DNA of 64,000 bases, taken from assembly GCA_021790195.1 (NCBI GenBank), contig JAJYIF010000006.1, positions 62,001 through 126,000 of the forward strand. Direction: 5' to 3'. Every line of letters starts with the position of its first letter. Within the stretch, counting starts at the first letter, position 1. The notes under the pieces were generated by a model. It did no database searches and was not told the DNA's origin. It was given only the letters and a program-made list of their open reading frames with translations. The DNA is from Nitrospirota bacterium. GTDB taxonomy: Bacteria > Nitrospirota > Thermodesulfovibrionia > Thermodesulfovibrionales > UBA9159. A program made the translations under genes and the position numbers. Positions 55,905 to 60,402 of this stretch are shown piece after piece.

Positions 55905-56492
55905 TCACTCCTTCATATAACAGGGAATGCACACCGCCTTACCGTCTCTGACCCTCGCCCGCGGTTCAGCCACTTTTTCGCCGCACAGGCTGCATTTTAT
56001 GCTCCGGTATATTTTGGCTCCCGGGGGGAGGGAGACGTCGACATCGGTGATCTTCAGCAACTTGGCCTCAGGCGCATCCAGGATGGCCCTCGTTTTCTTG
56101 GCCTTCCTGTTGTGAACTGCCCGCAAAACTTCGCGGGAACGTTCCCCGCGAGAATATCGCCTCCACATCTCCTTCTCGGCCTTGGTCTCCTCGGGGGAGA
56201 CGAAATCCACCGAGATCCGGACCGCCCTGCCTGCAGGCCTCTTTATAAACGTGTAGACCTGCTTGCCGTAATCCCTATGGAGGAGATTGCCCTTTCCGAA
56301 AGTGCACCCGGTTATCGCCTGAACAGCATCGACGGCGCACGAGTCATTCTCCACGATCGCCAACAGTTCCTCGTCCTCGGACATGTTGGTCATGTCCATT
56401 TCTCGCAGCGCCGCAAGCGCAACACGGTAGCCCAGGGCAAGTCCCGGACAGCTGTGGCCGTGAAAGCCTACTACGTCCTTATAGCTCTTCAT
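55905..56492 (-). CDS. FmdE-family protein with C-terminal zinc ribbon
   Basis: 195 residues. The FmdE signature [19 protein letters not shown] is at residues 10-28 and [18 protein letters not shown] follows. C-terminally, [19 protein letters not shown] with CIPCY forms a zinc ribbon (CX2C...CX2C). FmdE was named from formylmethanofuran dehydrogenase operons, but bacterial members occur near molybdenum or tungsten enzymes. No such enzyme is nearby, so the role is unclear. It heads the argB run. Confidence 0.85.
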
Positions 56493-58072: not shown

Positions 58073-58444
58073 TCAGACAGGGTGTTTCGACCTGTAATCC
58101 TCAATCGCCTTTTTGAGGGCGTCGGCCCCGAGGTTGGAGCAATGCATCTTCTGCGGCGGCAGACCGCCGAGTTCATTGGCCACCGCCTCTTTGGAAATGG
58201 CAAGCGCCTCTTCCAGGGTCTTACCTTTCACCATCTCGGTGACCATGCTGCTCACGGCAATGGCGGCCCCGCAGCCGAAGGTCTTGAATTTTGCATCGAC
58301 TATCCTGCCCTCTTCGACCTTGATAGAGATCTTCATAACATCTCCGCATGTCGGGTTGCCTTCCGTGCCGACACCGTCGGCGTCAGGTATCTCACCCACA
58401 TTCCTGGGATTTGTGAAATGGTCCATTACTTTTTCACTGTACAT
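58073..58444 (-). CDS. iscU: Fe-S cluster scaffold IscU
   Basis: 123 residues from the ATG at 58444 behind AGGAGG; the upstream extension has no ribosome-binding site and is not family-like. Scaffold ligands: C33 and D35 in NPTCGDVMKI, C58 in FGCGAAIAVSSM, and H101-C102 in KMHCSNLG. It assembles a 2Fe-2S cluster for transfer. Last gene of the isc operon, after the IscS-like gene. Confidence 0.95.
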   Translation of the reverse strand: MYSEKVMDHFTNPRNVGEIPDADGVGTEGNPTCGDVMKISIKVEEGRIVDAKFKTFGCGAAIAVSSMVTEMVKGKTLEEALAISKEAVANELGGLPPQKMHCSNLGADALKKAIEDYRSKHPV

Positions 58445-58472: not shown

Positions 58473-59690
58473 CTATTTCTTCGGGGACTCAGATGATGTT
58501 GTGTAACACTTGCTGCCCGCTTCCTTTTCGTCCCATCCTTTCGCAAAAGGGGATATTTCCCTCAGTCTCTTTATTATCGGCGGGAATTCCTCAAGGAGAT
58601 AATCTATGTCCTCCCCGGAATTGTCTTTCCCCAGGGTGAATACCACAGAGCCCTGGGCAAGACTCGAAGGTATTCCCATAGATAGCAGGACGGGCGACGC
58701 CTTCAGGGCCTTGGAAGAGCATGCCGAGCCGCTCGCCACGTACATGCCCTTGGACGCAAGCAGAAGGAGCATGGATTCTCCCTCGATATACTCTACGGTG
58801 AAACTTGCATGTCCCGGAAGGCGTCCCTCGGGATGTCCCGTAAGGTAAACATTTTCAACTCCGAGTACGCCTTTAATGAGCCTGTCCCTCAGCTTCTTGA
58901 CGTGCTCCGTCCTCCCGGCCATCTCTGCCTTTGCAAGCTCCGCGGCCTTACCCATGCCGACTATAGCCGGAACATTTTCTGTGCCCGCCCTTCTGCCGCC
59001 TTCCTGTATCCCGCCGTAAATAAGCGGGACGATCCTCAGCCCTTCTCTGACGTACAGTGCCCCTGCTCCTTTAGGGCCGTAGAACTGATGTGCGGCCATG
59101 CTCATGAGATCGACGCCCATCTCTTTTACATCAAGAGGTATGTTGCCCGCCGAAGCCACGGCATCTGTGTGGAACACGACTTTGTGCTCTTTCGCGATCC
59201 CGGCTATCTCTCTTACCGGCTCTATGGTCCCGACCTCGCTGCTTGCATGGACCACCGATATCAAGACGGTCTCCTTTGTTATCGCGCCCTTCACCGCGTC
59301 CGGATCGACTACTCCGTATTTATCAGCCGGAAGATAGGTGACCGCAAAGCCCGACTTTTCGAGGAACCTGGCAGCATTCAAAATGGAATGGTGTTCCATT
59401 CTCGATACGATAATATGTTTGCCCTCGGCCTGCCTGGCAAGGGCTATCCCCCTCAGGGCAAAGTTATTCGCCTCTGCTCCGCTGCTTGTGAATATGATCT
59501 CGGAAGGTTTTGAATTGATTAGGGCTCCGGTCAGCGCCCTGGCGTTTTCTATGGCCTCTCTGGCCTTCATCCCCATCTCATAAAGGCTGAGAGGGTTCCC
59601 GAACTCTTCCCTGAAGAAAGGCAACATAGCCTCAAAGACCTGAGGGTGCAGCGGGTTGGTCGCAACGTGGTCAAAGTAGCATTTTCTCAT
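58473..59690 (-). CDS. IscS/NifS-like protein lacking the PLP lysine
   Basis: 405 residues of the class V aminotransferase fold with IscS-like blocks: FYGPKGAGALYV, RAGTENVPAIVGMG and the cysteine loop with C324 in VASGSACSSKA. The lysine that forms the PLP Schiff base (H-K in the GHK/AHK motif) is Gln here: H201-Q202 (codon CAG). The N-terminal DNNATT motif is also changed to DHVATN. Archaeoglobus fulgidus IscS is a known case lacking this Lys (Asp instead). The protein may act as a structural partner of IscU or use another mechanism. The ~25-residue C-terminal tail after PFAKGWDEKEAG is extra. Confidence 0.9.
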   Translation of the reverse strand: MRKCYFDHVATNPLHPQVFEAMLPFFREEFGNPLSLYEMGMKAREAIENARALTGALINSKPSEIIFTSSGAEANNFALRGIALARQAEGKHIIVSRMEHHSILNAARFLEKSGFAVTYLPADKYGVVDPDAVKGAITKETVLISVVHASSEVGTIEPVREIAGIAKEHKVVFHTDAVASAGNIPLDVKEMGVDLMSMAAHQFYGPKGAGALYVREGLRIVPLIYGGIQEGGRRAGTENVPAIVGMGKAAELAKAEMAGRTEHVKKLRDRLIKGVLGVENVYLTGHPEGRLPGHASFTVEYIEGESMLLLLASKGMYVASGSACSSKALKASPVLLSMGIPSSLAQGSVVFTLGKDNSGEDIDYLLEEFPPIIKRLREISPFAKGWDEKEAGSKCYTTSSESPKK

Positions 59691-59692
59691 GT

Positions 59693-59947
59693 CTACCTCA
59701 CTTTTCTGATATACAATTTATAATATTCATCGGAGTCTTCTACGCCGAGAAACTCATTGCCCGTCTTTTGACACCACTCGGGAACATCTTCGAGAGCGCC
59801 GTCATAGTCGGTCAGTATCTCCAGTATCTGCCCCTTTTCGAGTTCTTTCATCTTCTCTTCGAGTTTCAGCAGGTGCATCGGGCACATCATATACACGATG
59901 TCCGTCGTAACATCCGGCTTGATTCTTTCGACAAACTTCAGCGTCAT
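59693..59947 (-). CDS. TusA/SirA-like sulfur carrier
   Basis: 84 residues. The conserved cysteine motif of TusA (CPxP) appears as C22-P-M-H in VYMMCPMHLLKLEEKMKE, and the later IRKVR end and beta-alpha-beta pattern (GQILEILTDYDGALEDVPEW) fit the fold. TusA-type proteins carry persulfide sulfur. Placed between iscR and the IscS-like gene, it may deliver sulfur to IscU. Its start overlaps iscR by 4 nt. Confidence 0.78.
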   Translation of the reverse strand: MTLKFVERIKPDVTTDIVYMMCPMHLLKLEEKMKELEKGQILEILTDYDGALEDVPEWCQKTGNEFLGVEDSDEYYKLYIRKVR

Positions 59948-60402
59948 GCCACGTCAAACCTGTAGATCTTGTCTCTTCTGTCACCCTTAAGCAGGTGTTC
60001 CTGTTCGATCAGGTTATTAAGTGTGATCGTCTCGAGAAAGGCCTCTATCTTTGCGCCCAGAGACCTCCAGAGGAGATGGGTCACGCAGCCCTCGACCCTT
60101 GCGCAGCCTTCCTCGGGATCGAGACAGGACGTAATTGCAACAGGTCCTTCCAGTTCTTTGAGTATGACGGCAATGCTTATCTTGTCCGGCTCTGCCGCAA
60201 GGAGATAGCCGCCGCCCGGACCCTTGACGCTCTTGATAAGGCCTGCCCGCCGGAGTTTGTTCAGTATCTGTTCGAGGTATGCGACCGACACGTCCTGCCT
60301 CTCGGATATCTCCTTGATCGTGACGGGGTTCTCAGGATAGCCCCTTGCAATCTCAAACATCGCCCTAACTCCGTACTGGCCTTTGGTAGAAAGTTTCAGC
60401 AT
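59944..60402 (-). CDS. iscR: IscR-type Rrf2 regulator
   Basis: 152 residues: winged helix (MLKLSTKGQYGVRAMFEIA start; RRAGLIKSVKGPGGGYLL) and cluster ligands C93-x6-C100-x5-C106-x2-H109, close to the C-x5-C-x5-C-x2-H pattern of the 2Fe-2S regulator IscR. It likely represses its own operon when holding a cluster. No ribosome-binding site precedes the ATG, which lies at the expected transcription start. Confidence 0.93.
   Translation of the reverse strand: MLKLSTKGQYGVRAMFEIARGYPENPVTIKEISERQDVSVAYLEQILNKLRRAGLIKSVKGPGGGYLLAAEPDKISIAVILKELEGPVAITSCLDPEEGCARVEGCVTHLLWRSLGAKIEAFLETITLNNLIEQEHLLKGDRRDKIYRFDVA

Follow-up and report, generated by a model that had tools for sequence, protein, structure and literature searches.

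An IscS/NifS homologue of a Nitrospirota bacterium, which we call IscS*, has lost the lysine that forms the Schiff base with PLP together with two further residues of desulfurase chemistry, and it belongs to a bacterial protein family in which the same losses recur. Because cofactor anchoring and cysteine binding have been removed while the sulfur-carrying cysteine and the iscU gene were spared, we infer that IscS* very probably does not act as a cysteine desulfurase; this inference rests on sequence and on one characterised precedent, and the activity has not been measured. The gene lies in the window, i.e., the whole stretch of 64,000 nucleotides analysed here, in a run of four minus-strand genes in the order iscR, tusA-like, iscS*, and iscU (Table 1).

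Table 1. Genes and diagnostic codons of the iscS* operon in the window.
Feature	Position	Strand	Basis
IscU/NifU_N scaffold, 123 aa, C33, C58, C102, D35 kept	58073..58444	minus	TIGR03419 over cut-off
Lys-less IscS/NifS homologue (IscS*), 405 aa	58473..59690	minus	ORF; PF00266; TIGR03402 sub-cut-off; fold match 4hvk
Val350, substrate-carboxylate Arg position (E. coli Arg354)	58641..58643	minus	alignment; role from PMC9978102
Codon TGC = Cys324, mobile-loop cysteine (E. coli Cys328), motif SGSACSS	58719..58721	minus	sequence, alignment
Codon CAG = Gln202, PLP-Schiff-base position (E. coli Lys206)	59085..59087	minus	sequence, alignment
Ala179, PLP O3'-contact position (E. coli Gln183)	59154..59156	minus	alignment; role from PMC9978102
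TusA-like sulfur carrier, 84 aa, Cys22 (CPMH) + Cys59 (WC)	59693..59947	minus	Pfam TusA domain
IscR/Rrf2 regulator, Cys93, Cys100, Cys106	59944..60402	minus	profile match, alignment

Where IscS and NifS proteins carry His-Lys, the codons CAT-CAG (59090-59085, minus strand) specify His201-Gln202 in the context ...MAAHQFYGPKG... (full context: MAAHQFYGPKGAG), exactly as the initial annotation of this DNA had read them. That annotation had also pointed to the retained loop cysteine and to an altered N-terminal motif as the sign of a divergent lineage. The cysteine codon is intact, the motif YFDHVATNPLHP is present, and the joint loss of the residues equivalent to Gln183 and Arg354 fits such a lineage. 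Residue roles are given in E. coli IscS numbering (Lys206, Gln183, Arg354, Cys328, His104, Asp180, and Glu152). In the E. coli enzyme, PLP is bound as a Schiff base to Lys206 and through its phenolate oxygen to Gln183, and Arg354 holds the substrate carboxylate; the K206A and Q183E variants are inactive and R354K is active (PMC9978102).

By sequence (254 bits, E 2.7e-75) and by fold, IscS* qualifies as a member of PF00266, the fold-type I / class V aminotransferase family. Its best NCBIfam model is NifS TIGR03402, against which it scores 485.4 bits, under the curated equivalog cut-off of 530.75; a Lys-type paralogue of the same genome (L001) reaches 623.4 bits, above this cut-off. With respect to the features of NifS/IscS desulfurases (EC 2.8.1.7), the loop cysteine is present and the Schiff-base lysine, Gln183, and Arg354 are absent. 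The predicted monomer has the complete desulfurase fold (pLDDT 88.5, pTM 0.87), with loop 324-328 disordered (pLDDT <50), as expected for a mobile loop. Archaeoglobus fulgidus IscS (PDB 4hvk) is the best structural match (TM 0.88/0.96, rmsd 1.6), followed by human NFS1 complexes and E. coli IscS; TM values against IscS/NFS1 chains are 0.88-0.90. The model is silent on PLP.

None of the 119 distinct proteins that share at least 60% identity with IscS* has the lysine (111 Gln, 6 Glu, 1 Ile, 1 Met), and the 30 orthologous loci from the genome itself and from relatives of the same order (72-100% identity) all had Gln. The initial annotation had named as possible refutations a sequencing error hiding an AAG codon and lysine in homologues of the same clade. 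The former, like the idea of a single-genome oddity, is ruled out by dozens of independent genomes, and no homologue of the latter kind was found at or above 60% identity (n = 119). In a pattern scan of 295 genomes of the phylum, 90 had the Gln motif; they belong to many families within the order, to further families of the class, and to one family elsewhere in the phylum. Orthologues missed by this pattern had Glu (family f4), Ile (G021), Met (G023), or an HQM motif (G046), never Lys. Protein-based searches in the phyla to which an Aminicenantes MAG and a Syntrophaceae MAG belong, which are free of the bias of the Gln pattern, returned both Lys-type and Lys-less proteins, the latter with Gln, Pro, Ser, Thr, Ile, or Ala at this position and often without the neighbouring His. 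The initial annotation had suggested checking whether Gln is conserved in relatives; it is in most close relatives, and Lys is absent from all of these, but a strict need for Gln had to be rejected, as Glu, Ile, Met, Pro, Ser, Thr, and Ala also occur. Since Gln is fixed in most Nitrospirota, the alignments nevertheless suggest a role of Gln202 beyond the mere loss of Lys. Six further loci (L267, L276, L346, L348, L357, and L359) form another Lys-less branch, in which the motifs are AANQFYGPSG-like and the loop is altered to ST[RK]SACASGSLR; IscU is encoded upstream rather than downstream in some of these cases, and the branch may be a functionally distinct group.

We aligned 254 distinct proteins, 69 with and 185 without the lysine, A. 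fulgidus IscS being among the 185. Only three positions separated the two groups (90%/15% criterion), namely Lys206, Gln183, and Arg354. All three residues were present in 69 proteins and all absent from 182, Gln183 alone was present in 3, and no other combination occurred; Arg354 was therefore found in 0/185 and Gln183 in 3/185 Lys-less proteins. The equivalent of the loop cysteine, by contrast, was kept in 184 of the 185 Lys-less proteins, and His104 and Asp180 were kept in all 185; Glu152 does not vary within the Lys-less family either. In the Nitrospirota order, the positions equivalent to Thr76 and Asn155 as well as Ser203 have changed in addition, and family f23 retains the HANNE/HSNNE motif and the Ser. 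As these additional PLP contacts have changed in the order but persist in f23, the alignment looks like the outcome of a stepwise loss that started with the three key residues.

The complete iscR-tusA-iscS-iscU operon described in the initial annotation is present and co-oriented, and its gene order is kept in nearly all relatives examined from the Nitrospirota class and order; family f23 has the variant iscR-iscS*-iscU-tusA. This conserved order and the lack of Lys in all 119 close homologues go far beyond what chance would give. Cys22 and Cys59 of TusA, the three cysteines of IscU, and the three of IscR are invariant across the iscS* operons of the home phylum. We saw no hscAB, iscA, or ferredoxin gene in the iscS* operon. 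The TusA-like protein of the window passed the Pfam TusA domain model (80 bits) and failed the TusA equivalog NF001423 (34.4 bits, cut-off 78). It represents a distinct two-cysteine form (CPMH...WC) that stays under every curated TusA/YedF cut-off, and TusA-like genes near other Lys-less iscS genes in several phyla encode proteins ~55-63% identical to the f23 or the window copy. Outside the home phylum, a TusA-like gene lay within ~1.5 kb of 8 of 25 Lys-less loci and of none of 35 Lys-type loci (Fisher p 4e-4; the loci are not independent), and the wider flanks of Lys-less loci yielded additional TusA cases and one operon with DsrE2. The latter (L369, G450:C97, from the Thermodesulfobacteriota search set) encodes in one run an IscS* with Pro at the Lys position, IscU, a short ORF, DsrE2 (PF13686), and TusA, i.e., a sulfur-trafficking pair adjoining Fe-S assembly genes. 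In an Aminicenantes operon, a stand-alone small Nfu-domain gene (L170:5165-5428) is located immediately upstream of the Lys-less iscS*, and L192 and L376 have similar short upstream matches. Not far from the ISC operon, the window also encodes an FmdE-domain protein fused to a DksA/TraR-type zinc finger (55905-56492).

In trees built from all alignment columns, the bacterial Lys-less proteins formed a single clade (support 91-99), with the Lys-type protein of PDB 9wep as sister or unresolved. When the four diagnostic columns were masked, the deep order became weak; 9wep may then nest within the family, and one to three changes are possible. On these trees, we take the bacterial family to reflect one or very few old losses of the lysine. 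The masked tree grouped A. fulgidus IscS with Lys-type proteins (96/85) and hence does not support its placement in the same clade, although a clade uniting it with the bacterial Lys-less proteins was not rejected (p-AU 0.27). The initial annotation had likened IscS* to this archaeal protein, which has Asp in place of Lys and is reported to lack desulfurase activity and to supply a cysteine ligand to the IscU cluster (PMC7585200). The likeness in the lost lysine stands, but the archaeal loss of the same three residues probably occurred independently of the bacterial one, as judged from the masked tree. PDB entries 9wep, 9wer, 9wew, 9wf8, 9wfb, 9wfe, and 9wfy are near-identical, carry the name 'cysteine desulfurase', and are altered at the same pocket positions, one entry of the series having Leu at the Lys position; they seem to be engineered forms of the Lys-type protein most closely related to the Lys-less clade.

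Nitrospirota and no fewer than five other phyla harbour the Lys-less family, whose genes adjoin iscU and often that of a two-cysteine TusA-like carrier. Nitrospirota carriers include Thermodesulfovibrionales, Magnetobacterium and its relatives, and a UBA9217 MAG. Among the Gln-motif matches listed from a collection-wide scan were Schekmanbacteria, Aminicenantes, and Thermodesulfobacteriota, most of these matches adjoining IscU, and Chloroflexota (L246) and Actinomycetota (L254) MAGs contributed Lys-less proteins to the alignment and tree. A search for a second, canonical desulfurase, as had been suggested, yielded two Lys-type proteins in the genome under study, one adjoining a full-length NifU (L001, SGHKLHAPKG) and one solitary (L003, SHKFCGPKG), both encoded away from iscS*. 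SufB/D was not found in this genome. Within the order, 4 of 77 genomes with IscS* had a strong SufB/D match versus 19 of 24 without it, a contrast that is confounded by ancestry: SufB/D is present in nearly all genomes of families f9 and f10, which lack iscS*, and most other families of the order have iscS* and no strong SufB/D. Most IscS* hosts possess at least one Lys-type paralogue. No Lys-type desulfurase was found among the PF00266 matches of G051 (96% complete), G069 (95%, same genus), and G055 (98%), though draft gaps could hide one; the strongest other matches were SerC-like proteins and other aminotransferases. In these three genomes the Lys-less protein is the sole NifS/IscS/SufS-type protein found, and yet MnmA-type (tRNA 2-thiouridylase-type) genes are present.

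We propose that IscS* is a non-desulfurase docking and sulfur-relay (or cluster-ligand) subunit for IscU that is fed by TusA persulfide or by sulfide. This reading we regard as reasonably probable; its chemistry is untested. The initial annotation had already seen in the gene a functional, divergent protein resembling A. fulgidus IscS, for which TusA, sulfide, or another desulfurase might supply the sulfur, and the evidence supports that view. IscS* would form a desulfurase-fold dimer that no longer desulfurates cysteine, having lost the Schiff-base lysine, the PLP-tuning glutamine, and the carboxylate-holding arginine, as well as further PLP contacts in the Nitrospirota branch. Its retained function would be that of a docking hub in a minimal ISC system, where it would bind IscU as in other IscS-IscU pairs. 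Two roles of Cys324 can be inferred: it may accept sulfane sulfur from the two-cysteine TusA-like protein encoded alongside and pass it to IscU, or, as in the crystal of A. fulgidus IscS with IscU, it may serve as a ligand while the cluster forms on IscU, the sulfur then coming from sulfide or TusA persulfide. In the E. coli IscS-TusA complex, the TusA cysteine lies ~4 A from Cys328 of IscS (PMC2854127), so that a reverse transfer from TusA to IscS* is sterically possible. We propose the co-encoded TusA as the most economical sulfur donor, again by inference; it cannot be a universal donor, since TusA was not found beside iscS* in many Thermodesulfobacteriota members. Where a separate Lys-type desulfurase exists, as in most hosts, it could charge TusA; in the few hosts without one, TusA would have to be charged by sulfane sulfur or sulfide from other metabolism.

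The operon would also be compatible with a scaffold fed by sulfide only, in which IscS* forms no persulfide, Cys324 is merely a cluster ligand, and TusA serves another pathway, e.g., tRNA thiolation or a redox or regulatory function. We consider this unlikely without being able to dismiss it. The A. fulgidus protein, for which such a role has been proposed, offers a precedent (PMC7585200), and the SMS system is able to use sulfide (PMC12192291). A dsrA-type gene above the cut-off in 95 of 101 genomes of the order places sulfide metabolism close at hand, and the presence of MnmA even in genomes without a Lys-type desulfurase means that TusA may be needed there. However, dsrA is equally present in the families without IscS* (f9 and f10), and in several phyla the TusA-like gene goes with the Lys-less gene rather than with the Lys-type paralogues. 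Dissimilatory sulfite reductase was rejected as a simple discriminator between genomes with and without iscS*.

PLP-fold enzymes without the lysine exist, e.g., the dehydratase ColD, and IscS* might bind PLP (or PMP) non-covalently and catalyse a different reaction through His104, Asp180, and Glu152 together with Gln202. These three residues line the PLP pocket in active enzymes and are invariant here, and Gln202 is nearly fixed in one phylum; because an empty pocket would be expected to drift, this one may still hold PLP or another ligand, and retention of a non-covalent ligand is possible. The E. coli IscS variant K206A still binds some PLP (PMC9978102), which makes a 'no PLP' assignment for IscS* insecure. 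We nevertheless judge a different reaction improbable: elsewhere in the family, Gln202 is replaced by Glu, Ile, Met, Pro, Ser, Thr, or Ala and His201 is frequently missing, the contacts to PLP O3' and to the substrate carboxylate are gone, and the gene remains with iscU.

That most hosts have a Lys-type paralogue would allow IscS* to be an inactive subunit that forms a hetero-oligomer with, or regulates, the Lys-type desulfurase of the same cell; given that no such paralogue was found in G051, G055, and G069 and that the Lys-type genes of the genome under study are located elsewhere, this is very doubtful. A decaying paralogue that lost its catalytic residues and persists through linkage to iscU is hardly credible and a pseudogene is rejected, because iscS* is under purifying selection (pairwise dN/dS 0.03-0.09 in pairs without synonymous saturation, close to the iscU value) and the family shows full-length frames in several phyla, with 49 positions at least 98% identical throughout; together with the conserved operon and the clade-wide loss of Lys, this agrees with the earlier view that the gene is not obviously a pseudogene.

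Extending the proposed relay role, the family may represent an ancient and widespread cysteine-independent ISC system in anaerobes of several phyla, in which a PLP-free IscS homologue is charged by a dedicated two-cysteine TusA, passes sulfur to IscU, and is the sole NifS/IscS/SufS-type protein in some hosts. We put this forward only tentatively. The sulfur on TusA would then come from DsrE2, rhodanese, sulfide oxidation, or another desulfurase. In E. coli, sulfur flows from IscS to TusA, a direction that such a system would reverse.

Cysteine desulfurase is regarded as the sulfur source of ISC systems, and two archaeal exceptions have been treated as oddities. The best database matches of the Lys-less family are all named 'cysteine desulfurase', although this multi-phylum bacterial family has lost exactly the residues of desulfurase chemistry and replaces SUF in most genomes of one order. 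Its hosts probably build Fe-S clusters from sulfur supplied by another route. If so, many anaerobes (magnetotactic Nitrospirota, Thermodesulfovibrionia, Aminicenantes, and Thermodesulfobacteriota) would at this step assemble Fe-S clusters without cysteine as the immediate donor, their genome annotations would be wrong, and the entry of sulfide or sulfane sulfur into ISC would become testable with a four-gene operon. A Lys-less IscS is already known as an idea from A. fulgidus and from Methanosarcina acetivorans IscS1. In the literature searched, where the A. fulgidus work was covered by PMC7585200, we came across no description of a Lys-less IscS family in bacteria, of the joint three-residue loss, of the TusA linkage, or of the near-exclusion with SUF.

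IscS* shares its fold, the mobile-loop cysteine, and the IscU and IscR neighbours with the NifS/IscS desulfurases (TIGR03402, TIGR02006), from which it differs by the missing Schiff-base lysine, Gln183, and Arg354 and by a score under the NifS cut-off. Besides M. acetivorans IscS1, the previously known Lys-less IscS is that of A. fulgidus (PDB 4eb5, 4hvk; Asp199), which resembles IscS* in fold, loop cysteine, IscU partner, and the same three losses (Asp, Ala, and Leu at the Lys, Gln, and Arg positions). The two proteins are only ~45% identical, and A. fulgidus IscS keeps the Thr and Asn contacts to PLP, both of which the Nitrospirota form has lost. We know of no TusA-like partner of the archaeal protein. 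DsrE2-TusA modules resemble the iscS* loci in the adjoining TusA-like gene and, in L369, in DsrE2; the characterised modules serve sulfur oxidation and not IscU (PMC4175335), and their tie to Fe-S assembly at iscS* loci is inferred from gene order only. The MIS system (MisS-MisU) has a two-component IscS-IscU core like the iscS* operon, but it is described as having a cysteine desulfurase (PMC12192291), whereas in the iscS* operon this function seems to have been lost and TusA added.
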